Shown in pieces: positions 4,199 to 39,744 of a stretch of 64,000 bases of DNA (the stretch's first letter is position 1; every line of letters begins with the position of its first letter). The stretch comes from Chloroflexota bacterium (GTDB taxonomy: Bacteria; Chloroflexota; Anaerolineae; Anaerolineales; Villigracilaceae), in contig JACRBL010000036.1 of assembly GCA_016234485.1 (NCBI GenBank), forward strand, positions 62,001-126,000. Direction: 5' to 3'. Both the position numbers and the translations under genes were made by a program. Under the pieces are notes generated by a model. It was given only the letters and a program-made list of their open reading frames with translations, was not told where the DNA came from and did no database searches.

Positions 4199-5977
4199 GT
4201 GAATAAGAAACTGTTTAACCTGCTTTCCCTGCTCGTGTTGGCCAGCATGATGCTGGCGGCCTGCGGCGGACAAGCGACCGAAGCCCCCGCCACGGAAGCC
4301 CCGGCCACCGAGGCTCCCGCGACCGAAGCGCCCACTGAGGCGCCCACTGCGGCTCCGACCCCTGAGCCCACCCCCATCCCCGATGTTCCGATCGCGACCT
4401 TTGATGGAACTTCGCTTTCCGTCCCCGCTGAGGAATGCAACGGCGATTACGCTGGCTTGATCCAGTCTGTCGTCGCGACCGACGCGAACACCGTGACCTT
4501 CACGCTCTGCCGCCCGGATCCTGCCTTCCTCTCGAAGATTGCCTTCAACGTGTATGGCATCTATCCCTCCGAGTGGATCGAAGCTACCGCGGGCGATGGC
4601 ATTCGCACCAGCGAGGGCCTCGAGCATCCCATCGGCACTGGCCCCTACATGGTGAGCGAGTGGAAACGCGGCGAAAGCGTGACCCTGTCCGCCAACCCCG
4701 AATATTGGGGCGAGGCGCCGTACGCCGAAACCCTGGTCTTCCGCTGGTCGACCGAGTCTGCGGCTCGTATGCTCGAACTGCAAGCCGGCACCGTGGACGC
4801 GATTGACAACGTCGGCCCCGAAGATTTCGAGACCGTGAAGAACGACGCGACCCTACAATTGAAGGAACGCCCGGCCTTGAATGTGTTCTACATCGGCATC
4901 ACCAACACCGTGGCCCCGTTCGATAATGTCAAGGTTCGCCAGGCGATCGCGCAGGGCATTGACCGCCAGCGCATCGTGGATACCTTCTATCCGCCAGGAT
5001 CCGAGGTTGCCAGCCACTTTACCCCATGCGCCATCCCGAACGGCTGCGTGGGCGATGCGTGGTACGAGTTCAACGCGGATGCCGCCAAGGCCCTGTTGGC
5101 CGAGGCCGGTTACCCCGATGGCTTCGCGATGAAACTGTACTATCGTGACGTCGTGCGCGGCTACCTGCCCCAGGTAAGCAACGTGGCCCAGGATATTCAG
5201 GCGCAGTTGAAGGAAAACCTGAACATTGACGCCGAGATCGTTGTGATGGAATCGGGCGCGTTTATCGAAGCCTCCACCTCCGGCTCGCTGACCGACGGCA
5301 TCTACCTGCTCGGTTGGGGCGCGGACTATCCCCACATCACCAACTTCCTCGATTACCACTTCGGCGCGGCCAACCCGCAATTCGGAACCCAGTCTGACAC
5401 CTACACCGACCTGTTGGTCGAAGGCGCGCAGATCGGCATTCCTACCGAAGCGGAATCGATCTACGTGGAAATCAACAACGCCATCCGTGAATACGTCCCG
5501 ATGATTCCCGTCGCTCATGGCGGCTCGGGCGTGGCCTATCGCGCCGACGTAACCAACCCGCAGGCCAGCCCGCTCGGCACCGAGTTGTTCTACGTCTCCG
5601 ATCCCGGCGGCCGCGACACCTTCGTCTGGATGCAGAACGCCGAACCCATCAGCCTCTTCTGCGCCGATGAGTCCGACGGCGAGTCGCTGCGCGTTTGCGA
5701 GCAGGTCGTTGAATCGCTCTACACCTACGAGATCAACGGCTCCGACGCCATCCCCGCGCTGGCTGAATCCTGCACGCCGAACGAAGACCTGACCGTTTGG
5801 ACCTGCGCTCTGCGCAAGGGCGTGAAGTTCCACGACGGCTCGGACTTCGACGCCGCGGACGTGGTTGCCACCTTCAACATGGGCCTGAACATCGGCTCTC
5901 CGTTCCACGTGGGCAACACCAACCTGTGGGAGTACTTCGATTACCTCTGGGGCCTGATGAAGAAACCCGGTGGATAG
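4199..5977 (+). CDS. Family 5 ABC substrate-binding lipoprotein, apparently circularly permuted
   Basis: This is an extracytoplasmic binding protein for a peptide/nickel-type ABC importer. The start is GTG 4199 with GGAGGAGA upstream. A lipoprotein signal ends LAAC (Cys22), followed by an Ala/Thr/Glu/Pro repeat linker. Residues ~83-460 match the middle and end of the SBP_bac_5 fold: TVTFTLCRPDPAFLSK, HPIGTGPYMVSEW, DNVKVRQAIAQGIDR, and the final AH..SGVAYRADV strand. Residues ~472-592 match its normal beginning: ESLRVCEQVVESLYTYE, PALAESC, LRKGVKFHDGSDF.AADVV. The order is therefore rotated, with the break after the NPYHK...YEYF-equivalent region. It heads an operon with two permeases. Confidence 0.85.
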   Translation: MNKKLFNLLSLLVLASMMLAACGGQATEAPATEAPATEAPATEAPTEAPTAAPTPEPTPIPDVPIATFDGTSLSVPAEECNGDYAGLIQSVVATDANTVTFTLCRPDPAFLSKIAFNVYGIYPSEWIEATAGDGIRTSEGLEHPIGTGPYMVSEWKRGESVTLSANPEYWGEAPYAETLVFRWSTESAARMLELQAGTVDAIDNVGPEDFETVKNDATLQLKERPALNVFYIGITNTVAPFDNVKVRQAIAQGIDRQRIVDTFYPPGSEVASHFTPCAIPNGCVGDAWYEFNADAAKALLAEAGYPDGFAMKLYYRDVVRGYLPQVSNVAQDIQAQLKENLNIDAEIVVMESGAFIEASTSGSLTDGIYLLGWGADYPHITNFLDYHFGAANPQFGTQSDTYTDLLVEGAQIGIPTEAESIYVEINNAIREYVPMIPVAHGGSGVAYRADVTNPQASPLGTELFYVSDPGGRDTFVWMQNAEPISLFCADESDGESLRVCEQVVESLYTYEINGSDAIPALAESCTPNEDLTVWTCALRKGVKFHDGSDFDAADVVATFNMGLNIGSPFHVGNTNLWEYFDYLWGLMKKPGG

Positions 5978-6058
5978 TCGTTAGCGACTTCCGTTTTTTG
6001 CAAGCCATACGGGATGGCGGGGAACCGCCATCCCGTATTCTCAAAGGAATCACCAGCC

Positions 6059-7141
6059 ATGATGCTCCAATACATCCTGCGGCGCGTGTTGACTTCGATC
6101 CCGGTCATATTTGGTATTTTGCTTGTGACGTTTATGCTGGCGCGCGTCATCCCCGGCGATCCGTGCCGCGCCATTTTGGGGGAAAAGGCCACCGAAGAGG
6201 TGTGCAGTCGTTTTATTCGCGAAAAGGGACTCGACCAGCCCCTGATGAAACAATTCGGCATTTATTTGGGAGAGATCGGGCGCGGCGAGTTTGGGCAATC
6301 GTACCGCCTCAGCCTGCCGATCTCGCGCCTGCTGGCCGAGCGCCTGCCGACCACGGTGGAGTTGAGCGTCTCCGCGCTGATGGTCAGCCTGCTGGTGGGG
6401 ATTCCCCTGGGCATCATTTCGGCGGTAAAGCATAATTCATGGGTTGACGTTCTTACAATGATCTGGGCCAACACCGGCGTATCCATGCCGGTCTTCTGGT
6501 TGGGGTTGATGCTGGCCTATGTGTTTTCATTATTACTCAAAGACACACCCTTCTGGTTGCCTCCCTCGGGCCGCGTCAGCCCGGGCATTCCCGACGATCC
6601 ATTCTATGAAGTGTGGGGCATGACCTTGACGGATGGAACCTTCCTCTTTGGGCTGTTGGGGTTCATCTCGCGCATGAACGTCATTAACGCCCTGCTCAGC
6701 GCCAATTGGGAACTTCTCAAAGACTCCATTGAACACCTCATCCTGCCGTCGCTGGCGCTTGGAACGATCCCAATGGCGTTGATCGCGCGTATGGCGCGAT
6801 CGTCCATGCTCGATGTGCTTGGGCAGGATTACATCCGTACCGCGCGCGCCAAAGGCTTATCGTTCAATGCGGTGATATTCAAACACGCTTTTCGCAATTC
6901 GCTTTTGCCGCTCGTCACCGTGATCGGGCTTTCGCTGGGAAGCCTGCTTGGCGGCGCGGTTCTCACCGAAACCATCTTCGGACTCTCCGGCGTGGGGCGC
7001 ACCCTCTTTGAAGCGATCACCGCAAGGGACTATGGCATTGTGCAGGCCTTCACCGTGGTCATCGCCGTTTTCTTCGTGGCGCTCAACCTGCTGGTGGATA
7101 TTTCCTACGCCTATCTCGATCCCCGCATCCGACTCAACTAG
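6059..7141 (+). CDS. Peptide-type ABC transporter permease, DppB-like
   Basis: This is an integral membrane subunit that forms the pore with the next gene product. The N-terminus MMLQYILRRVLTSIPVIFGI and ARVIPGDPC are typical of DppB/OppB permeases. The ATPase-contact EAA loop is visible as ARMARSSMLDVLGQDYIRTA followed by RAKG. The 360-residue length is normal to slightly long, with an extended extracytoplasmic region around residues 160-210. AAAGGA precedes the start, which is one of two adjacent ATGs. The gene lies 81 bp behind the binding protein. No ATPase gene follows, so a DppD/DppF pair must come from elsewhere. Confidence 0.9.
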   Translation: MMLQYILRRVLTSIPVIFGILLVTFMLARVIPGDPCRAILGEKATEEVCSRFIREKGLDQPLMKQFGIYLGEIGRGEFGQSYRLSLPISRLLAERLPTTVELSVSALMVSLLVGIPLGIISAVKHNSWVDVLTMIWANTGVSMPVFWLGLMLAYVFSLLLKDTPFWLPPSGRVSPGIPDDPFYEVWGMTLTDGTFLFGLLGFISRMNVINALLSANWELLKDSIEHLILPSLALGTIPMALIARMARSSMLDVLGQDYIRTARAKGLSFNAVIFKHAFRNSLLPLVTVIGLSLGSLLGGAVLTETIFGLSGVGRTLFEAITARDYGIVQAFTVVIAVFFVALNLLVDISYAYLDPRIRLN

Positions 7142-7150
7142 GAAACCCTC

Positions 7151-8113
7151 ATGACACAGGATAACAAAGTCGCCGCGCTCGACGCCGAGGGCCTCACCCT
7201 CAAATCGGTTAGCCTTTGGCAGGTGACGTGGAGACGTCTCTTTCGCCGCCGTTCCGCCATGGTGGGGCTGGGCATCCTCGGGGCGCTCATTTTGATCGCC
7301 TTCGCCGCGCCATTGCTCGCGCCCTATGACCCGATCCGATCCATGCTGGACGTGGACGGCTATCCCAGGGAATTTGCCAAACGAAGAGCTGCCCCCTGCA
7401 TCCACATTATGGGCGACTGTCCGGACGAACAACCGCAACACATCATGGGATTGGATGGTAACGTGCGCGACGCGTTCAGCCGCCTGCTCTACGGCACGCG
7501 CATCAGCCTGTTCATCGGATTCTCCACCGTCACCTTTGCCATCGTCATCGGGACGGTTCTCGGCGCGGTGAGCGGATATTTCGGCGGCTGGCTGGATAAC
7601 GTCATCATGCGCTTCATGGACGTCCTTCTGGCGTTTCCCTCGCTTCTTTTGGCGATCGCCATCGTGACCGTGCTCGGGCCAGGGCTGACAAACGCGTTGC
7701 TGGCGATCGGCATCGTCTCGATTCCATCCTACGCGCGCGTGGTGAGGTCGTCTGTCCTATCGGTTCGCGAAATGGACTATGTATCGGCCACTCGTGCGCT
7801 GGGCGGATCCAACTTTGACATTTTGTTCCGCCGCATCCTCCCCAACGCGTTGACGCCCCTCATCGTGCAAGGCACGCTCGGCATCGCCAGCGCCATTCTC
7901 GATGCGGCCGCGCTCTCGTTTCTCGGCCTCGGCGCGCAACCGCCCCTGCCCGAGTGGGGCAAGATGCTGGCGGATGAACGCAACCAGGTCTTCACTGCGC
8001 CGCACCTCGTCTTTTATCCCGGCTTCGCCATCATGCTGACCGTGCTGGCCTTCAACCTGCTTGGCGACGGCCTGCGCGACGCGCTGGATCCGCGGCTGGC
8101 GCATAACACGTAA
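7151..8113 (+). CDS. Peptide-type ABC transporter permease, DppC-like
   Basis: This is the second membrane subunit of the importer. Features are WRRLFRRRSAMVGLGILG before the first membrane helix, APLLAPYDP, SRLLYGTRISLFIG, the EAA loop (SVLSVREMDYVSATRALGGS) and a C-terminus ending FNLLGDGLRDALDPRL, all family-typical. The extracytoplasmic loop after helix 1 contains an extra stretch with two cysteines (APCIHIMGDCPDE), not usual in the family. The start lies nine bases behind the dppB-like stop. A strong terminator follows. Confidence 0.9.
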   Translation: MTQDNKVAALDAEGLTLKSVSLWQVTWRRLFRRRSAMVGLGILGALILIAFAAPLLAPYDPIRSMLDVDGYPREFAKRRAAPCIHIMGDCPDEQPQHIMGLDGNVRDAFSRLLYGTRISLFIGFSTVTFAIVIGTVLGAVSGYFGGWLDNVIMRFMDVLLAFPSLLLAIAIVTVLGPGLTNALLAIGIVSIPSYARVVRSSVLSVREMDYVSATRALGGSNFDILFRRILPNALTPLIVQGTLGIASAILDAAALSFLGLGAQPPLPEWGKMLADERNQVFTAPHLVFYPGFAIMLTVLAFNLLGDGLRDALDPRLAHNT

Positions 8114-8130
8114 AATATTCTGTATAAAAA

Positions 8131-8163
8131 AAACGGCAGACGTTTTCGATGCGTCTGCCGTTT
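8131..8163. terminator. Bidirectional terminator between DppC-like and rhomboid genes
   Basis: A twelve-base stem (AAACGGCAGACG with CGTCTGCCGTTT) and 9-base loop lies between convergent genes, with T-rich tracts on both strands. Confidence 0.85.
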
Positions 8164-8167
8164 TGGT

Positions 8168-8947
8168 TTAAGGCACAATCACGGATGTCATTCCGAGCAG
8201 GGCCAGGGCGGCGAAGAGGATCAACACCGCCGCCGCGCCCAGCACCACGTCGCGGCCTTCGCGTTTGTCCACGAGGCGGAGCAGGGGATAGATCCCCTCC
8301 ACCTGCCAGAGCGGGCCGCCGAACCAGGTGAAGATCAACCCGCCGAAGAGTCCGCCGATGTGTCCCCAGTTGTCAATTAATCCGCCGCTCGAAAAACCGA
8401 TTACGAGATTGATGACGGCCACCGAGATCACGTTGCCGATGGCTTGTTTTGATTCTTCGCCGAAGAGTTTTCGATTCTGGTAGAGAAAAATCCCCTCGGC
8501 AGCGATCAACCCAAAAATGGACGTGGACGAACCGACGGAGATCCCGTCTGTGAAGAGGAAGGAAAGCACGTTGCCAGAGAATCCAGCGAGAAGATAGAGA
8601 ACCAAAAATCGGAAATGTCCGAAGCGCCTTTCCAGCCCCGTGCCGAAACTGAAGAGCGCGTACATGTTGAAGCCGATATGCCAGAGCGATCCGTGCAAAA
8701 GGATGGGCGTGATCAATCGCCAGAGTTGCCCATCGCGAATCAACTCTCCCGATTTGGCGCCAAAAGCGACAGGCAGATCGTAACCTGTCAGGAAACTCGA
8801 AGCCATTTGCAGGAGGTAGATGAGAATCGTCAGCGCAAGAATCGTGTAGGTGACGCGCGGCGGGGAGGACGGAAGCCGAAGGGCGATGGGGCCGGCGGGC
8901 GGCGCGGCCGGCTGAACGTCGGATGGAGAGGCGGGGAAGTCGCTCAT
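8168..8947 (-). CDS. Rhomboid-family intramembrane serine protease
   Basis: This is a polytopic membrane protease expected to cleave transmembrane segments. Family landmarks are WRLITPILLHGSLWHIGFNMYAL (the HxxxN oxyanion region), the catalytic serine in GSSTSIFG, and the catalytic histidine in WGHIGGLFGG. The usual GxSG motif has Thr in place of the second Gly, but the Ser-His dyad is intact. The Pro/Ala-rich N-terminus is cytoplasmic. The start overlaps the gmk stop by four bases (ATGA), so the two are co-transcribed. Confidence 0.88.
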   Translation of the reverse strand: MSDFPASPSDVQPAAPPAGPIALRLPSSPPRVTYTILALTILIYLLQMASSFLTGYDLPVAFGAKSGELIRDGQLWRLITPILLHGSLWHIGFNMYALFSFGTGLERRFGHFRFLVLYLLAGFSGNVLSFLFTDGISVGSSTSIFGLIAAEGIFLYQNRKLFGEESKQAIGNVISVAVINLVIGFSSGGLIDNWGHIGGLFGGLIFTWFGGPLWQVEGIYPLLRLVDKREGRDVVLGAAAVLILFAALALLGMTSVIVP

Positions 8948-12516: not shown

Positions 12517-13179
12517 ATGCTGTTTGTACTTGCCGCGTTGATCTTCGCCGCGCTGACCGCGTGGGCGACATGGAAACAAAATCGAAAATTGGAATTCATC
12601 GCCAAGCCCGCGGTGATGATTCTCCTTCTGGCCTACCTGTGGACATCGGTAGGCTTGCATGGCGCGTTGACCTGGTTCGCGCTGGGGATGTTCTTCTCGC
12701 TGGTGGGCGACGTGCTGTTGCTCTGGCTCGACCGCATGTTCTTGTACGGACTGGTCGCGTTCCTGCTGGCGCAAATTTTCTACGTGATCGGATTCAACTC
12801 TCCGCCCTCGGCCTTCTCGATGTGGGGCATCATCATGGCCGTCATCGTCGGGTTGGGAGCGGCGCGCGTTCTGCGCCGAATCCTGTCCGCACTGGCGGAG
12901 AAGGGCGCCACGCGCATGCGAAAACTCGTCGCGGTCTACGGCATCGTCATCACGCTGATGTTGCTCTCCGCCATGCTCAAGTTGACGGATGCCACCTGGG
13001 GCGCGGGCGCTTCGGGATTGGTTGGCTTGGGCGCGTTCCTTTTCTATCTATCAGATATTGTTCTGGCATGGCTCAAATTCGTTACCCCCATCCAAAATGG
13101 ACGAATCATAAATATCGGGTTGTATCATCTTGGACAGGTTTGCATTGCCGCGGGGGTGGTCATGCAATATACAGGTTGA
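12517..13179 (+). CDS. YhhN/TMEM86-family lysoplasmalogenase-like membrane protein
   Basis: A 220-residue integral membrane protein with about eight hydrophobic helices. The landmarks KLEFIAKPAVMILLLAYL, ALGMFFSLVGDVLLLW and a C-terminal YLSDIVLAW fit the YhhN family, whose eukaryotic members hydrolyse lysoplasmalogen. Activity here is inferred by family only. The start has GAGGAGG upstream. Confidence 0.8.
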   Translation: MLFVLAALIFAALTAWATWKQNRKLEFIAKPAVMILLLAYLWTSVGLHGALTWFALGMFFSLVGDVLLLWLDRMFLYGLVAFLLAQIFYVIGFNSPPSAFSMWGIIMAVIVGLGAARVLRRILSALAEKGATRMRKLVAVYGIVITLMLLSAMLKLTDATWGAGASGLVGLGAFLFYLSDIVLAWLKFVTPIQNGRIINIGLYHLGQVCIAAGVVMQYTG

Positions 13180-13251
13180 AAGTCAAAAGTCGAAGGTCAA
13201 AAGTCACATTTTGCAAAAACGACTTTTGACCTTCGACCTTCGACTTGCTTT
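13176..13251. repeat. AAGTCGAAGGTC inverted-repeat block
   Basis: Tandem AAAGTC/GAAGGTC units are followed by their complement (GACTTTTGACCTTCGACC), giving a long hairpin between genes. Similar GGTCGAAGGTCGAAAG text occurs at 2852-2868. Confidence 0.6.
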
Positions 13252-13284
13252 TCGCGATAAAAAACCAACGGGGAATCCATGCTG

Positions 13285-13290
13285 TATAAT
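13285..13290 (+). promoter_or_regulatory. -10 box of the HAD-like gene, leaderless arrangement
   Basis: TATAAT ends seven bases before ATG 13298, with no ribosome binding site. Confidence 0.55.
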
Positions 13291-13297
13291 ACCCTCC

Positions 13298-13768
13298 ATG
13301 CTCGAACTCACCATCCCAGGCCGCGGCGAATTGCGGATTGAACACCTCGTCACCGACGTGAACGGCACGCTTGCCCTCGATGGCATCCTCCCCGATGGCC
13401 TCGCCAAACGCATCGGACTCCTGCGCGACCGACTCCAAATCCACCTGCTCACCGCCGACACGCACGGACGGCAGTCCGTCATTGACGCACAACTCAATCT
13501 TGTTGCAGTGCGAATCAAAGGCGGGAACGAGGCCCAGCAAAAAGCCGACTACGTGAAAAACATCGGCGCCGACTCGGTCGTTGCCATCGGCCAGGGAGCG
13601 AACGACGCGCTCATGCTCAAAGAAGCCGCGCTGGGAATCTGCATCCTCTCGAAAGAAGGCCTCGCGACAGAAACCCTCCTCGCCGCCGATCTGCTCGTCC
13701 CCGACATTTTCTCCGCCCTCGACCTGCTCGAAAAACCATTGCGATTGATCGCGAGTTTAAGAAAATAA
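13298..13768 (+). CDS. HAD-like protein, soluble P-type ATPase type (COG4087-like)
   Basis: A 156-residue protein with a haloacid dehalogenase core. Motif I reads DVNGTLALDG, where the second aspartate of DxDx(T/V) is Asn. Motif II is LLTADTHG, and the C-terminal VVAIGQGANDALMLKEAALGIC matches motifs III/IV of the P-type ATPase phosphorylation domain. The family is described as a soluble P-type ATPase-like phosphatase of unknown substrate. The Asn substitution may reduce phosphatase activity while keeping phosphoryl transfer. Confidence 0.8.
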   Translation: MLELTIPGRGELRIEHLVTDVNGTLALDGILPDGLAKRIGLLRDRLQIHLLTADTHGRQSVIDAQLNLVAVRIKGGNEAQQKADYVKNIGADSVVAIGQGANDALMLKEAALGICILSKEGLATETLLAADLLVPDIFSALDLLEKPLRLIASLRK

Positions 13769-13776
13769 TCCCCATC

Positions 13777-13830
13777 GCGGACTCGAAAGTCTCCGACTTT
13801 CGAACCAACGTCAGAGACGTTGGACTCCGC
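13777..13830. repeat. Three-way-junction repeat, copy 1
   Basis: An outer stem (GCGGA/TCCGC) encloses two hairpins, GAAAGTC-TCC-GACTTTC and CCAACGTC-AGA-GACGTTGG. The same architecture recurs at 32537-32594. Confidence 0.6.
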
Positions 13831-13843
13831 AGCCTTCACCCCA

Positions 13844-15088
13844 ATGAACGAACCCGCCTCCCCCAATCCCCCTCTTCACGACGCGCGCGCCCGCCGTCGC
13901 CGCGCCCGCCGCGCCCTGTTCCCCTCCGACGCCGAAGGGCAGGCCGCCGTCCTCGCCGACGTGGCGCATCGCTCCTATCCATCCTTTGAATTGTTCATCT
14001 TCGCCGTGGTCAGCGGGGTCATCCTGGCCGCGGGCTTCGCCTTCGACTCGCAAGCCACCCTCATCTTTGGCGCGCTCGCCGCGCCGCTCCTCACGCCCTG
14101 GGTCGGCCTCGCCATCGCCATCGTCACAGGCTCGCCGCGCTACTTCTTCCAAACCTTCGCCGCGCTGCTCGTTAGCGCCATCATCGTTTTCCTCATCGGC
14201 CTCGCGGCGGGCTTCGCTGCCCTCCCGTTCGAACCGCGCACACATCAAGAAGTCCACCTGCGCGCTTCGCTCTGGATTCCCCAACTCGCCATCCTCGCGC
14301 TCGGCGCGGTTCTGCTCGTCATCACCTTCGTCCGCACCGAAAACAAACCCTACCTCCCCAGCGCCTTCCTCGCCTACGCGTTTTACCTGCCCCTCAGCGC
14401 CGCAGGCTTCGGCCTCGGCGCACGGCTCAATGGCGTGTTTCCCGAAGCCGCATTCGTGGCGCTCGTCCACTTTGCGTTCGCCACCATCGTCGCCACGCTT
14501 ACCCTGATCGCCCTGCGCTTCCGCCCGCGCTCCTTCGGCGGATTCCTCTTCACCTTCTTCGTCATCATCGCTTTCCTCGCCATCGCGTGGACGGCCTACA
14601 CCTTCGATTTCGCCCCGCGCGGGACTGTGCCTCCTCCCGCGCCGATTCCCACCCTTTCATCGCCTCCCACCTCGACTTCGGCCGCGTTGCCCTCCGCCGC
14701 GCCGAGTCCCAGCCCGAGCGCTACCCTGCCCTCTCCCACGCAGACGGAGATTCCTCCCACCTCCACACTTGAACCAGCCACATCCACGCCCGAGGGCGCG
14801 TCCACGCTGGCCTTCACCGTCGAGCCGACGCCCATCTACGCCACCATCAAATCGCCCGAGGGCGGAGGTGCGCGCGTCCGCAACGCGCCGGGCGGCGATT
14901 ACCTCTTCACGCTCAGTAACGGATACATTGTCATCGTCCTCGGCGAGACCGTCATCCTCGAAGATGTTTGGATCAAAATTCTCGTGGATCGCAACGGCGA
15001 AAAGGTGGAAGGCTGGATCATCCAGTCTCTGCTCGCCACGGCCACGCCCGTCGTCAATTGGGAACCGACGGCTACGCCAACGCCCTGA
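13844..15088 (+). CDS. DUF389-like membrane protein with C-terminal SH3-like domain
   Basis: A 414-residue protein. After an Arg-rich cytoplasmic start come about six to seven membrane helices (residues ~45-255) whose first pair reads AAGFAFDSQATLIFGALAA and PLLTPWVGLAIAIVTG, similar to DUF389. A Pro/Ser/Thr linker (~265-325) leads to a bacterial SH3-type domain (~330-395; GGARVRNAPGGDYL, then EGWIIQSLLA) that usually binds cell-wall peptides. It starts at ATG 13844; the TTG 13820 in frame is less likely because it falls inside the repeat element. A fused envelope anchor with a wall-facing domain is the best reading. Confidence 0.75.
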   Translation: MNEPASPNPPLHDARARRRRARRALFPSDAEGQAAVLADVAHRSYPSFELFIFAVVSGVILAAGFAFDSQATLIFGALAAPLLTPWVGLAIAIVTGSPRYFFQTFAALLVSAIIVFLIGLAAGFAALPFEPRTHQEVHLRASLWIPQLAILALGAVLLVITFVRTENKPYLPSAFLAYAFYLPLSAAGFGLGARLNGVFPEAAFVALVHFAFATIVATLTLIALRFRPRSFGGFLFTFFVIIAFLAIAWTAYTFDFAPRGTVPPPAPIPTLSSPPTSTSAALPSAAPSPSPSATLPSPTQTEIPPTSTLEPATSTPEGASTLAFTVEPTPIYATIKSPEGGGARVRNAPGGDYLFTLSNGYIVIVLGETVILEDVWIKILVDRNGEKVEGWIIQSLLATATPVVNWEPTATPTP

Positions 15089-34344: not shown

Positions 34345-35604
34345 TTATTGTTTTTCGTAGGCCACGCCGTCCGCCGCGGGGGGGATGGCGCGTCCGACCA
34401 CGCCGGTCAGCACGATCATGGTCACGATGTAGGGAGCCATCGCCAGGATGGAAGAGGGAATCGGCACGGAAAGAATCTGCATCTTGATCTGCAACGAGTC
34501 CGCGAAGCCGAAGATGAGCGAGGAGGTGAACGCGCCGATGGGATTCCAGTTGCCGAAGATCATGGCGGCAAGGCCGATGAAGCCTTTGCCGGCGGTCATC
34601 ACTTCGTCGAAGCGGCCGACCGAGCCGAGGGTGAAGTAGACGCCGCCGAGGCCGGCGATCATGCCGCCGACAATGACGTTGACGTAGCGCACGAAGAAGA
34701 CGTTGATGCCGAGCGTATCCGCGGCTTTTGGATGTTCGCCCACCGCGCGGGTGCGTAGACCCCAGGGGGTGTAATAGAGAACGATGTGCATCACAATGAC
34801 GATGAGCAACATCAAATAGACAACGAGGTTGTTCTCGAAGAGGATCGGGCCGAGAACGGGAATTTTGGAAAGCAGGGGAATCTGGATGATGGGGTATGTG
34901 CCAGAGTTGTTGAGCAGGTCGCCCTGGTGTTGCAGGTATTTGGAGGAGAGGAAGGATGTGGCGCCTGTGGCGAAAATGTTGATAGCGACGCCGCTCACGA
35001 TTTGGTCCACTTTGAAGCGGATGACGAGGAAGGCGTGGAAGGCCGCCACCAACGCGCCGACGAGGACGCCGACGATGAGGCCGAGCGTCATGCTTCCGCT
35101 CATGGTGGCCGCGACCACCGAGGCCTGCGCCGAAATGAGCATGATGCCTTCGATGCCGATGTTGACCACCGCGGCGCGTTCGCTGATGACGCCGCACAGC
35201 GCGGCCAGCGCGATGGGCGTGGCGCGCACCAGCGAACTGCTTAACATGCCGATGAGGCTGAGCGATTTTCCCTTGGTGGCCCAGATGAGGAAGGCGGCCA
35301 CGAACGCGAAGGCCACAATGCCGAAGAGCGCGCCGGCCGAACGGATGCCGCGCGCCATTTGGAACGCGCCGAGGAATACGACCAAGATCGAAAGCGCGTA
35401 GATGCTGGCCTGCACGGGTAGCGTTATATCGGGGATGGGCAGCGCGGCGGAACTCTTGAGGTTCATGCCGAATTTGGCGACCTGGCCGGCTTCTGTGCCG
35501 GGCGTGAAGAGCAGGAATATCAACAAGCCAAAGACGATAAGAATCCCGCCCACCGTGAGTCGGTTGCGTTGTGCGGTGTGTTGAGAAGTGGATTGAACAG
35601 CCAT
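34345..35604 (-). CDS. Nucleoside-type ABC importer permease 2 (NupQ-like)
   Basis: A 419-residue permease of the branched-chain/sugar/nucleoside (BPD_transp_2) family with ten or so helices. Signature text is VVNIGIEGIMLISAQASVVA, FKVDQIVSGVAINIFATGAT, WGLRTRAVGEHPKAADTLGI and GKGFIGLAAMIFGNWNP. These match permeases paired with BMP-type nucleoside binding proteins (NupQ, BmpG). It lies seven bases behind permease 1. Nucleoside specificity is inferred from the binding protein. Confidence 0.88.
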   Translation of the reverse strand: MAVQSTSQHTAQRNRLTVGGILIVFGLLIFLLFTPGTEAGQVAKFGMNLKSSAALPIPDITLPVQASIYALSILVVFLGAFQMARGIRSAGALFGIVAFAFVAAFLIWATKGKSLSLIGMLSSSLVRATPIALAALCGVISERAAVVNIGIEGIMLISAQASVVAATMSGSMTLGLIVGVLVGALVAAFHAFLVIRFKVDQIVSGVAINIFATGATSFLSSKYLQHQGDLLNNSGTYPIIQIPLLSKIPVLGPILFENNLVVYLMLLIVIVMHIVLYYTPWGLRTRAVGEHPKAADTLGINVFFVRYVNVIVGGMIAGLGGVYFTLGSVGRFDEVMTAGKGFIGLAAMIFGNWNPIGAFTSSLIFGFADSLQIKMQILSVPIPSSILAMAPYIVTMIVLTGVVGRAIPPAADGVAYEKQ

Positions 35605-35611
35605 AAAACCT

Positions 35612-36874
35612 CTATTTGCCCCAACCGCGCGTCAACACGGTTTCATCGCCGGTCGAGATGCGGATGCGGAACAGCCAGCGGATGATGGCCGGCGCGGCCA
35701 CAAAGATGATGACCAGACCCTGGATGATGGAGATGATATCAATGGGGATGCCTGCCAGCGATTGCATGCGCGTCGCTCCGCTTCGCAAGATGCCGAACAG
35801 GATGGCGGACAGCACCACCCCAAGCGGGTGACTCTTTCCGAGCAGGGCCAGCGCGATGGCGTCGAAGCCGTAGCCCGCCGAGAAGCCCTGCCCCACCCAA
35901 TGGTCCACGCCCAAAACCTGCGCCGAGCCGGCCAAGCCGGCCAGCGCGCCGCTGAGCACCATCACCAGCACAAAGTTGCGGACAACGCTCATACCGGCGT
36001 ATTTCGAGCCATCGGGGTTGGCGCCCACGGAACGGATTTCAAACCCGAGCGTGGTTTTAAACAGGAACCAGTAAACCAGCCAGGCCACAACCAGCGCCAG
36101 CACAAAGCCCCAGTTGAAACGCAGGGGATCTTCAAAGAAGCGCGGCAGTTCGGCGGTCTTTTGAATGTTCGGCGTTACGGGGCGGAAGCCGGCTGTCATC
36201 ATCGGCCCGGTCAGTAACCAGTCGCTCAGGCGGAACGCGATCCAGTTCATCATGATCGTGTTCACCACTTCATGCGCGCCGAATTTTGCTTTCAGGTATC
36301 CTGGCACCGCGCCCCAGATCGCGCCCGCGAGCCCGCCTCCCAGAATCGCGAGCGGCAGGTGAACGAACCACGGCAGGCCTTTGAGGCTATAGCCCACATA
36401 GGCCGCGCCCAGCGCGCCCATGAAGAACTGTCCCTCCGCGCCGATGTTGAACAATCCGCAACGGAAACCGATGGCGACCGCGAGGCCCGCAAAAATGTAC
36501 GGGGTGGCCGTCACCAGGCTTTCGGTGAGCGGATAAATGGCTTTCAAAAATGCATCGTTATCGCCGGTGGCTTGCAGCGCTTTGAATCCCGCGATGATCT
36601 CGCGCGGGCTTCCGAGCGAGCCGTAGAACAGCGCGCCGTAGGCCGTGGCGATGGCCGTCCAGATGGATTTGAAGGCCGCGCCCGGATCAGATGAAAAATT
36701 CTTAAACGCTTCCGCCACGCCCGCGTCGGTGGCCGCGATCACGAGGCCGCCAATCACCAGGCCGATGAAGACGGCCAGCGTGGGGATCAGCAGGGACTGA
36801 AAAGCCGACCCGCCGAACATCTTTGCCAGGCTTGAACGCGCTTCTGTTTTCTTGATTTCTTTGTTCGCCGACAC
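35612..36874 (-). CDS. Nucleoside-type ABC importer permease 1 (NupP-like)
   Basis: A 420-residue permease of the same family. It has TPYIFAGLAVAIGFRCGLFN, GAEGQFFMGALGAAYVGY, FGAHEVVNTIMMNWIAFRLS (the motif before the ATPase contact), and GYGFDAIALALLGKSHPLGV. A cytoplasmic start and an extra N-terminal helix are normal for NupP/BmpF. It follows the ATPase by nine bases. Confidence 0.88.
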   Translation of the reverse strand: MSANKEIKKTEARSSLAKMFGGSAFQSLLIPTLAVFIGLVIGGLVIAATDAGVAEAFKNFSSDPGAAFKSIWTAIATAYGALFYGSLGSPREIIAGFKALQATGDNDAFLKAIYPLTESLVTATPYIFAGLAVAIGFRCGLFNIGAEGQFFMGALGAAYVGYSLKGLPWFVHLPLAILGGGLAGAIWGAVPGYLKAKFGAHEVVNTIMMNWIAFRLSDWLLTGPMMTAGFRPVTPNIQKTAELPRFFEDPLRFNWGFVLALVVAWLVYWFLFKTTLGFEIRSVGANPDGSKYAGMSVVRNFVLVMVLSGALAGLAGSAQVLGVDHWVGQGFSAGYGFDAIALALLGKSHPLGVVLSAILFGILRSGATRMQSLAGIPIDIISIIQGLVIIFVAAPAIIRWLFRIRISTGDETVLTRGWGK

Positions 36875-36883
36875 GTCCGCCTC

Positions 36884-38452
36884 CTAAAACACGCGTTCCG
36901 CTTCACCCGTCACGGATGGCGCGGATTTCAACGCGTCTTCGGGACGAATGCCCGCCATGAGCAGACCGATATATTCCTTGCTGGCCTGCGCGGCGGGAAC
37001 AATATCCACGATCTGGCCGCGATACATCACCGCGATGCGGTCGGAGAGCGCCAGGATCTCGTCCAACTCGGAGGAGACCACCAGCGCTCCCACGCCCTCA
37101 TCCCGTTTTTCGATGATGCGGCTGTGGATGTATTCGATGGAGCCAACGTCCAGCCCGCGCGTGGGTTGCGAGGCGATCAGCAGTTTTATGGGGCGCGAGA
37201 ATTCGCGCGCCACGATCACTTTTTGCTGGTTGCCGCCCGAAAGGCTGGAGGCGGGAACGTAGATGCTCGGCGTACGAACGTCATATTGCTTTGTCAGCGT
37301 TTCGGCGTTGTCCATGATGACCTTTTCCTGCAACCCAATGCCGCGCGCAAAGGGCGGCTGGTAATACGTGCAGAGCATCATGTTATCGTGGATCGGGAAC
37401 GTGAGGATCAATCCATGCCGCTGACGATCTTCGGGGATGTGCGCCACGCCTCTTTCCAGGATGTGACGCGGGGTCGCGCCGCGTTTGAGCGTTTCGCCAA
37501 CGATGCGAATCTCGCCCGATTGCAACGGCAGGAGGCCGGTCAACGCGTAGACGAGTTGCGTCTGCCCGTTGCCCTGCACGCCCGCGATGCCCAACACCTC
37601 GCCCATCTTCACGTCGAACGAAACGCCGCGCACGGTCATCTGTCCGCGTTCGTCTTCCACGTAGATGTCTTTCACTTCCAGAACAGACTCGGTGGGGTTG
37701 GCCTTCTTCTTCGGGACAACCAGGTTGACGTCGCGTCCCACCATCATCGAAGCCAGTTTTTCGGGGTTGACATCGCCGGGGATCACCGTGCCAACCGTCC
37801 GCCCATTGCGAAGAACGGTGATGCGATTCGCGAGCGCCATCACCTCTTTTAATTTATGCGTAATGAAAATAAGGGACTTGCCTTTTTCCACCAGCGAGCG
37901 CAGGACTTTGAACAAGCCTTCCACTTCCTGCGGGGTAAGCACCGCGGTCGGCTCATCGAGGATGAGAATGTCCGCCTGGCGATAGAGGACTTTGATGATC
38001 TCCACGCGCTGTTGCGTGCCGACGGGCAGGTCTTTGATATAGGCGTCGGGGTCCACTTCCAGTCCGTAGAGTTGCGAGATCTCGCGGATGCGTTTTGCCA
38101 CTTTGGCGCGGTCAAGGAAAACGCCGTTACGTTTCTCCTCCACGCCCAGCATCACGTTCTCGGTCACGGTCATCACCGGCACGAGCATGAAGTGCTGATG
38201 CACCATGCCAATGCCGCGCGCGATGGCGTCATTGGGGCCGTGAATTTCGGCTTTCTTGCCGCGCACGTTGATCTCGCCTGAATCGGGTTTATAGAGTCCG
38301 TAAAGAATATTCATCAGCGTGGTTTTACCCGCGCCGTTTTCCCCCAAAAGACAATGGATTTCGCCTTCCTGCAAATCAATATTTACGTGATCGTTTGCAA
38401 GTACGCCCGGAAATGATTTTGAAATATCCCGCAGTTCCAAAACTGTAGGCAT
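36884..38452 (-). CDS. Nucleoside/sugar-type ABC importer ATPase, double domain (NupO-like)
   Basis: A 522-residue fused ATPase with two ABC domains. The first has Walker A LLGENGAGKTTLMN, the degenerate signature LPVGTQQRVEIIK and Walker B ILILDEPTAVL. The second has IAGVQGNGQTQLVY (altered Walker A), SLSGGNQQKVIVARE and Walker B-like LLIASQPTRGLD. The layout is typical of RbsA/NupO/BmpE proteins. The first site should be the active one. It lies downstream of the binding protein across a terminator. Confidence 0.9.
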   Translation of the reverse strand: MPTVLELRDISKSFPGVLANDHVNIDLQEGEIHCLLGENGAGKTTLMNILYGLYKPDSGEINVRGKKAEIHGPNDAIARGIGMVHQHFMLVPVMTVTENVMLGVEEKRNGVFLDRAKVAKRIREISQLYGLEVDPDAYIKDLPVGTQQRVEIIKVLYRQADILILDEPTAVLTPQEVEGLFKVLRSLVEKGKSLIFITHKLKEVMALANRITVLRNGRTVGTVIPGDVNPEKLASMMVGRDVNLVVPKKKANPTESVLEVKDIYVEDERGQMTVRGVSFDVKMGEVLGIAGVQGNGQTQLVYALTGLLPLQSGEIRIVGETLKRGATPRHILERGVAHIPEDRQRHGLILTFPIHDNMMLCTYYQPPFARGIGLQEKVIMDNAETLTKQYDVRTPSIYVPASSLSGGNQQKVIVAREFSRPIKLLIASQPTRGLDVGSIEYIHSRIIEKRDEGVGALVVSSELDEILALSDRIAVMYRGQIVDIVPAAQASKEYIGLLMAGIRPEDALKSAPSVTGEAERVF

Positions 38453-38539
38453 GAAAATTCTCCTCGATACATCGCACCTTGCAAAATTAATTTCCCTGGC
38501 GATGCACGCCAGGTGTGTGGCACGAAATCAAGAGTCAAA

Positions 38540-38572
38540 AAAGAGGCCGGGGAGAAATCCCCCGGCCTCTTA
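38540..38572 (-). terminator. Terminator or attenuator between the BMP binding protein and its ATPase
   Basis: GAGGCCGGGG and CCCCCGGCCTC form a stem followed on the minus strand by T6. It would limit read-through from the highly expressed binding protein gene into the ATPase and permeases. Confidence 0.8.
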
Positions 38573-38583
38573 TGGCAAACAGA

Positions 38584-39744
38584 TTACTCGGCGAGAACGC
38601 CGTCCACGGTCAAAGAACCGTCAATCAAAGCCGCCTTGATGGCTTCGAGTTCGGCTTTCAGTTCCGCAGAAACGTCATCATCGAACTCATGGAAGGGGGC
38701 GATATCAACGCCGCCGTCGGCGATGGTGTAAACCACGGTGCCGCCGGTGAACTTGCCTTCCGTCGCATCCTTGATGGTGCTGTAAACAGCCACATCAATC
38801 TTCTTGAGAACGGAGGTCAGGGTGACCGAAGCATACTCAGAAGCGGTCTCGACCCAGTCGGCATCCACGCCGATGACCAGGCAGGAGCCGGTCTCTTTGC
38901 AGACCGCGGCGGAGCCGAGGCCAACCTGTCCAGCGACGGGCAGGATGATGTCGGCGCCTTCCTGCATGAAGGATTCAGCCAGGCGGCGGCCATCATCGGT
39001 GGATTCGAAGTTGTTGGTGAAGGTGCCTTCGCCGGAAGCGGTGTTCCAGCCGAGCACTTCAACGGTCGTGCCCTTCTGCTTGTTGTAGTACTTGACGCCG
39101 GCCTCGAAGCCCTTCATGAAGATCGTCACGGTGGGGATCGGGAGACCGCCGTAGGTGGCGACCTTGCCGGTCTTGGTCATGCCAGCGGCCAGGTAACCAG
39201 CCATGAAAGCGGCCTGGTCGGTCTGGAAGGCGAGACCGCGGACGTTCGTGAGGTCCTTGTCGGTACCGCACTGAACGCCAACTTCAGCGCCGGGCCAGCA
39301 GTCGGGGTAGGTGTAGTCCACGATCGCGAACTTCTGATCGGGGTTGGCAATGGCGGCCTTGGCAGTGTCCACGCCGAGCAGGAAGCCGATGGTGATGACG
39401 AGGTCGGTCTTCTCATCCAAGTACTGCTGGATGTTCTTGGCGTAGTCAGACTGCTGCTGCGACTCGAGGTACTTGGCCTCAACGCCGAGATCGGCAATCG
39501 CATCCTCGGCGCCCTTCCACGCGCTGGCGTTGAAGGACTTGTCGTCAATACCGCCGAGGTCGGTCACCTGACCAACTTTGAAAGCGGGCGCGGGCGGTTC
39601 GGTGGGGGCAACTGTGGGCGGTTCGGTGGGGGCGACGGTAGGCGGCTCGGTCGCGACGGGGGTGGGCGTCTGCTTGGGGCCGCAGGCGGTCAGCGCGAGC
39701 GAAAGCGCGACCAAAAGGGTCAAAATGGCGTACAGCTTCTTCAT
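38584..39744 (-). CDS. BMP-family ABC substrate-binding lipoprotein (nucleoside-type)
   Basis: A 386-residue lipoprotein of the BmpA/Med/PnrA family, which binds purine nucleosides in known members. The signal ends LALTACG; a Thr/Pro/Glu linker follows. The mature part has KVGQVTDLGGIDDKSFNASA, GVEAKYLESQQQSDYAKNIQ, FQTDQAAFMAGYLAAGMTKT and IILPVAGQVGLGSAAV. AGAAGGAG precedes the ATG. A full promoter is visible upstream. Confidence 0.9.
   Translation of the reverse strand: MKKLYAILTLLVALSLALTACGPKQTPTPVATEPPTVAPTEPPTVAPTEPPAPAFKVGQVTDLGGIDDKSFNASAWKGAEDAIADLGVEAKYLESQQQSDYAKNIQQYLDEKTDLVITIGFLLGVDTAKAAIANPDQKFAIVDYTYPDCWPGAEVGVQCGTDKDLTNVRGLAFQTDQAAFMAGYLAAGMTKTGKVATYGGLPIPTVTIFMKGFEAGVKYYNKQKGTTVEVLGWNTASGEGTFTNNFESTDDGRRLAESFMQEGADIILPVAGQVGLGSAAVCKETGSCLVIGVDADWVETASEYASVTLTSVLKKIDVAVYSTIKDATEGKFTGGTVVYTIADGGVDIAPFHEFDDDVSAELKAELEAIKAALIDGSLTVDGVLAE

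Follow-up and report, generated by a model that had tools for sequence, protein, structure and literature searches.

The stretch of DNA analysed here (the window) comprises 64,000 nucleotides of contig JACRBL010000036.1 from a Chloroflexota bacterium of the family Villigracilaceae. One open reading frame (ORF) on the forward (+) strand, at positions 4199-5977, encodes a 592-amino-acid lipoprotein of the SBP_bac_5 family of ATP-binding cassette (ABC) substrate-binding proteins, in which the native first ~115 residues are placed at the C-terminus. With a probability of roughly 0.87, this DppA-type (cluster C) lipoprotein is a genuine circular permutant of natural origin and descends from an old rotation, termed CP1, one of several in the family. 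The terms lobe, cluster C and hinge are used for these proteins in their usual sense, save where a source is cited.

A binding protein with its segments in rotated order

The gene begins with GTG at 4199 and ends with the stop codon TAG at 5975-5977. The canonical order of SBP_bac_5 proteins is N-A1-A2, where N is the native N-terminal segment and A2 the native C-terminal part. The window protein reads A1-A2-N and is therefore classed as a circularly permuted variant, not as a plain member of the family. Alignment with the solved 3m8u and segment profiles place A1 at residues 84-310 (4448-5128; about 150-374 of the DppA precursor) and A2 at residues 311-465 (5129-5593). Segment N, residues 472-592 (5612-5974), is delimited by Pfam and by 3m8u.

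PF00496 is the sole Pfam family found in the protein at a threshold of 0.001. It scores 271.5 bits, against a curated cut-off of 32.4, and matches in two stretches, the better of which pairs residues 86-392 with profile positions 63-365. On the DNA, positions 63-365 of the profile lie at 4454-5374 and positions 3-54 downstream, at 5750-5905, which is the reversed order. In phmmer comparisons, residues 475-581 match chain positions 5-118 of 3m8u and residues 84-465 match positions 122-503. Because these two matches nearly abut, hardly any residues are missing at the cut. The closed junction between native C- and N-termini spans about 6-7 residues (466-471; 5594-5611), and its length is 6-7 residues in 155 of the 160 distinct proteins with the window order. 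No duplicated segment was found in any reading frame when the gathered loci were searched with segment profiles at 12 bits. A preliminary description, made from the sequence alone, had already proposed a circularly permuted family 5 binding protein with no residues lost at the break. Its ORF, frame and coordinates are all right, and the permutation is borne out by profiles, alignments, relatives and models.

The AlphaFold model of the whole protein, built on 63 sequences, has a mean predicted local distance difference test score (pLDDT) of 86.2 and a predicted template modelling score (pTM) of 0.82; a model of residues 1-472 without the tail, built on 52 sequences, has values of 79.9 and 0.71. 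In averages over ten-residue blocks, removal of the tail lowers the mean pLDDT of residues 61-150 from 92.9 to 69.9, and that of residues 211-450 holds (91.1 and 92.8). Since confidence drops chiefly in residues 61-150, the loss concerns the region expected to rest on the native N-terminal segment. This indicates that the tail completes the N-lobe in the predicted structure, which displays the two-lobe fold of SBP_bac_5. A tail that does not complete the N-lobe had been named beforehand as grounds for abandoning the permutation; in the models, confidence is lost only in the N-lobe part. The structural neighbours listed for the window model are family 5 proteins. Structure aligners that follow chain order cover only about residues 64-471 of the model, and the best family 5 rows of Foldseek extend over about 390-400 columns.

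Residues 1-62 (4199-4384) form a signal peptide, with the lipobox LAAC recognized by eye (Cys22, 4262-4264), and a linker of Ala, Thr, Glu and Pro; pLDDT is below 50 across residues 18-58. The signal and linker, described earlier as a new addition, are present as stated, yet they resemble the heads of other lipoproteins of the genome. A copy from another lipoprotein gene was considered and not adopted; the longest DNA match, 72% over 126 bases, is repetitive and offers no proof. The earlier start of the matched half, near residue 83, agrees with the start at 84 found here, but the ~20 residues ahead of it (62-83) are also modelled with high confidence.

Four cysteines characterize the clade. 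Cys80 (4436-4438) and Cys104 (4508-4510) lie at or close to the new N-terminal arm, and Cys488 (5660-5662) and Cys500 (5696-5698) in the moved tail. The set occurs in 134 of 144 proteins of the main CP1 group, but in full in none of 16 basal CP1, 4 CP2 and 72 standard-order proteins. We infer a disulfide that may staple the arm, the pairing being a candidate one in both places.

Distribution and repeated origin of rotated orders

A scan of named genomes gave 97 relatives, and the best 80 of these 97 represent 79 distinct loci, all of which have the window order. By record name, 68 belong to Chloroflexota, 7 to Actinomycetota (6 of them Acidimicrobiia) and 1 to Acidobacteriota, and 3 are without a phylum. 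Most source records are metagenome-assembled according to their titles, which leaves room for an assembly artefact, a frameshift or a chimera. Such an error is nevertheless extremely improbable and is refuted for practical purposes, given the agreement of 79 of 79 loci, including that of Ilumatobacter nonamiensis YM16-303, whose record is not titled metagenome-assembled, and the 160 distinct proteins that share the order.

Within the family of the window's organism, 61 of 100 sampled genomes (its own included) have one match in the window order that extends from residue 77 or earlier to residue 582 or later; one of these matches carries an internal stop. A profile of the contiguous A2-N junction was searched in samples of two phyla. 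With at most six candidates scored per genome, the junction is spanned in 55 of 400 genomes of the window's phylum (E 1e-40). In the phylum of I. nonamiensis it is spanned in 4 of 296 genomes (E 1e-35), and 24 other matching genomes have one-sided matches only, which end or start near position 157. A control set of 12 genomes, hand-picked from these 296, yielded 56 matches to PF00496. None of the frames carries two reversed stretches; a single frame of 389 residues matches profile positions 63-366 only. Three of the nine SBP_bac_5 genes of the window's own genome are permuted, Pfam stretches being reversed also at C31:88763-90376 and C52:95325-97046. Reversed Pfam order is found elsewhere in G330:C5, G292:C7 and G205:C509 (G, genome; C, contig; L, locus).

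The rotation is an old, shared and clade-wide trait, not an event of the window gene. The preliminary description saw in it a striking single-ORF rotation, which understates a phenomenon that is repeated in the family. The suggestion that the same rotation be sought in related Anaerolineae proved fruitful; it occurs there and beyond Anaerolineae, in some Acidimicrobiia. Standard-order relatives, which were thought to speak against it, do exist but as separate lineages, so the rotation stands. Two genomes with permuted genes may be mentioned. In one small genome, G693, permuted binding-protein genes occur in tandem pairs, in four copies (L228, L229). L253 (L317:3372-5084, G736; record titled Acidimicrobiia) is divergent and has the window order without the window's cysteines.

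Segment orders were read in 240 distinct proteins with profiles built from the first-found set. CP1, the window order, is present in 160 and the standard order in 72; A2-N-A1 (CP2) is found in 4, A1b-A2-N-A1a (the CP3 order) in 3 and a divergent A1b-A2-A1a (CP4) in 1. These ratios are not frequencies, as permuted queries were used to collect the loci by similarity. Projected onto the Escherichia coli DppA precursor, the cuts fall at about 149/150 (CP1, L253), 303/304 (L190/L191, L237) and 374/375 (CP2), the exact residue depending on where the segment models start. CP4 shares, by sequence, its start and end motifs with CP3.

Trees were computed from re-ordered sequences, with 202 distinct rows and then a chosen 66; a tree of 59 rows omits seven long rows, and one of 51 omits the partial standard rows L298 and L293. 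Approximately unbiased (AU) tests were picked after the trees had been seen, so that their p values carry less weight, and the trees include long branches. With the mixture model, a clade of CP1-order rows and the CP3 proteins of L190/L191 is not rejected (p 0.597), and the tree so constrained has a likelihood above that of the free tree. A single clade of all permuted rows, CP2 included, is rejected (p 3.9e-138), and CP2 is therefore considered independent. A CP1 clade that excludes CP3 is also rejected (p 3e-45); CP3 of L190/L191 is therefore regarded as a second rotation of an already rotated protein. It keeps the CP1 arm APNCDYGG, which is now internal to the chain, and two of the three CP3-order proteins, L237 being the exception, keep the four clade cysteines.

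CP4 is made up of three genes, two from the window's own genome and one from G292. It lies beside standard-order paralogues in the wider tree (99), and a clade shared with CP1 is rejected (p 0.00015). For L237, which has the CP3 order, a clade with CP3 is rejected (p 0.003) and one with CP4 more weakly (p 0.021). These trees support at least four rotations (CP1, CP2, CP3 and CP4), and L237 is probably a fifth. Separate origins are not counted for L253, for which the test does not reject a place in the CP1 clade (p 0.13), or for basal CP1, which FastTree split off and the mixture model reunited, the joint clade with CP1 and CP3 not being rejected (p 0.597). Standard-order L142 sits beside basal permuted rows and is a possible reversion to standard order. 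The split gene L131 (G070:C104), broken near residue 310, was not accepted as a CP2 intermediate, as its two frames overlap like a frameshift.

Ligand, transport and anchoring

In E. coli DppA, residues Arg383 and Asp436 hold the carboxyl and amino ends of the dipeptide, and reversal of both is reported to have abolished binding (PMC12136057). At the level of aligned residues, their counterparts in the window protein are Arg320 (5156-5158) and Asp376 (5324-5326), which are invariant in 63 aligned rows; CP2 retains both, as do the CP3 proteins of L190/L191. The window protein most likely acts as a binding protein of the dipeptide type whose lipid anchor has been displaced, and by analogy with Haemophilus parasuis GbpA a glutathione-like ligand is possible.

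As described previously, the gene heads a two-permease operon. A DppB-type permease gene (6059-7141, +; PF00528, PF19300; start by eye, the frame opening at 6014) and a DppC-type permease gene (7151-8113, +; PF00528, PF12911) follow. For the CP1-order ORFs with at least 2.6 kb downstream, 92 including repeats from overlapping loci, a permB-like gene is directly next in 81, a permB-permC-ATPase run is present in 20 of those 81, and none of these genes is found in 9 of the 92. The CP2 genes (L129, L130, L192, L193) and standard-order L128 head the same operon type, two permeases followed by ATPases, with the second ATPase gene missing from L193, where the contig ends. L128 shares 68-76% identity with the CP2 loci in the permeases and 69-77% in the ATPases; in the binding protein, N+A1 is 69-73% and A2 60-63% identical. 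The simplest reading of these sequences is that CP2 rotated in place within a dpp operon whose standard-order counterpart is extant. In the window's genome, a dpp-like set at L243 (G000:C31) is headed by a permuted CP4 protein (12656-14755), and a standard-order protein (6159-8135) lies behind what reads as a second ATPase gene.

The window protein would be lipid-anchored through its new N-terminal linker at a different site of the N-lobe, would use Arg320 and Asp376 to close over a zwitterionic, dipeptide-like ligand, and would pass it to the DppB/DppC-type permease encoded alongside, as DppA does. The rotation itself could have arisen by gene duplication or recombination, with the adjacent native termini becoming fused and the gene being trimmed so as to begin with a new signal-linker head, of a kind often swapped in the SBP_bac_5 family.

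Several points weigh against this picture. The placement of the tail is judged from model confidence values, not coordinates, and the two models were built on different alignments (52 and 63 rows). A full match in the window order is lacking in 39 of the 100 family genomes. Both dipeptide residues are absent from L225 and the CP4 rows, and only the Asp remains in L227, L237 and L253; all of these proteins may bind other ligands. A reading of the same strand shows no ATPase gene downstream of the window permeases. The last point, together with the multi-domain fusions seen in some relatives, might suggest that the fold was kept and transport abandoned, for example in a tethered sensor, which is improbable in view of the frequent permease neighbours and the invariant ligand residues.

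A role in transport is the preferred reading, and what the rotation itself contributes may be a shift of the membrane anchor or of a fused head to a spot where it does not strain the ligand site. Most permuted proteins do look tethered: a crude lipobox pattern, which misses at least one case (L199), is found in 141 of 160 CP1-order (147 with a laxer pattern), 4 of 4 CP2 and 3 of 3 CP3-order proteins. Head modules are also swapped in front, SBP_bac_3 and/or Peripla_BP_6 being fused ahead of SBP_bac_5 in 19 of 160 distinct CP1-order proteins (late-fetched ORFs were outside the scan), and the same idea has been raised for the MglB-2 permutant of Treponema pallidum by the authors of its structure (PMC4990184). 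Standard-order relatives, however, likewise look tethered (56 of 72) and have the same fused heads (15 of 72), and tethering alone therefore fails to explain the rotation. As an adaptation of the anchor, the rotation is possible, at rather less than even odds. Nearer to an even chance is selective neutrality, in which the proximity of the native termini allows several rotations to fold and lineages to drift from one order to another. This is in keeping with three breakpoints and several origins, and permuted L118, L119, L120 and L230 have a signal without a lipobox by eye, which argues that lipid anchoring is not required. The retention of one order across a wide clade, and a cysteine set, with one member in the new arm, that marks the main CP1 group, speak against neutrality but do not exclude it.

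Head swapping occurs with and without rotation and is therefore a plausible route by which a rotated gene acquires a new signal. We lean towards the view that SBP_bac_5 in Chloroflexota and some Acidimicrobiia is topologically fluid, with recurrent and serial permutation (at least five origins, three breakpoints, one re-rotation) coupled to swapped anchors or fused binding domains at the new N-terminus.

Some heads deserve mention in their own right. L174, L180, L182, L188, L231, L068 and several of L148-L169 are lipoproteins with SBP_bac_3 (amino-acid-type) and/or Peripla_BP_6 (branched-chain-type) domains ahead of an SBP_bac_5 of either order; L182 has both in a frame of 1140 residues. In the permuted proteins L186 and L187 the N-terminal stretch, on which Pfam is silent at 0.001, is presumably LysM-like, perhaps a cell-wall anchor. 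Elsewhere in the window, a rhomboid-like membrane protein, by eye, is encoded after the two permease genes (8168-8947, -). A cluster at 34345-39744 (-) resembles, by eye, an ABC importer of the nucleoside type; its BMP-like lipoprotein has a signal and a linker similar to those of the permuted gene.

Relation to known binding proteins

E. coli DppA and H. parasuis GbpA/HbpA are the best sequence matches of the window protein and are among its structural neighbours. It shares with DppA both dipeptide salt-bridge residues and the permease genes alongside. It differs from these proteins in being rotated near DppA 149/150, in being a lipoprotein, and in being only 27-30% identical over the aligned part. 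It reaches 171.8 of the 1005 bits set as cut-off for the NCBIfam DppA equivalog NF043070; it probably works like DppA without being classed as one.

Binding proteins of other clusters include known natural permutants. T. pallidum Tp0684 (MglB-2) is a circularly permuted glucose-binding lipoprotein for which a 'cluster Bc' was proposed (PMC4990184). In common with the window protein, it is tethered and has a naturally permuted topology found also in relatives; it differs in its breakpoint and probably in its fold, cluster B (type I), since PF00496 as the sole Pfam family and the family 5 proteins listed as structural neighbours point to another cluster for the window protein, and a second or serial rotation is not mentioned in the available portion of that report. 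The CPSARST paper groups the binding proteins for glycine betaine and for molybdate into one circular-permutation family (PMC2395249). There too the permutation is between bilobed binding proteins, but with less than 24% identity these are remote relatives and not, as here, near orthologues that share an operon type. Among the titles and abstract openings of the open-licence literature, no permuted family 5 protein was found.

Annotators should be aware that chain-order tools bring no more than about two thirds of such a protein into alignment. In the published cases found, the permutation is a single difference that separates families. In SBP_bac_5, rotation distinguishes near orthologues that head one and the same type of operon (CP2 and standard, with pieces 60-73% identical), and one clade was rotated twice. 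The origin, the intermediates and the functional effect of a permutation are therefore directly testable, and SBP_bac_5, in which a rare rearrangement appears to have taken place several times, offers a natural test bed for protein rewiring.
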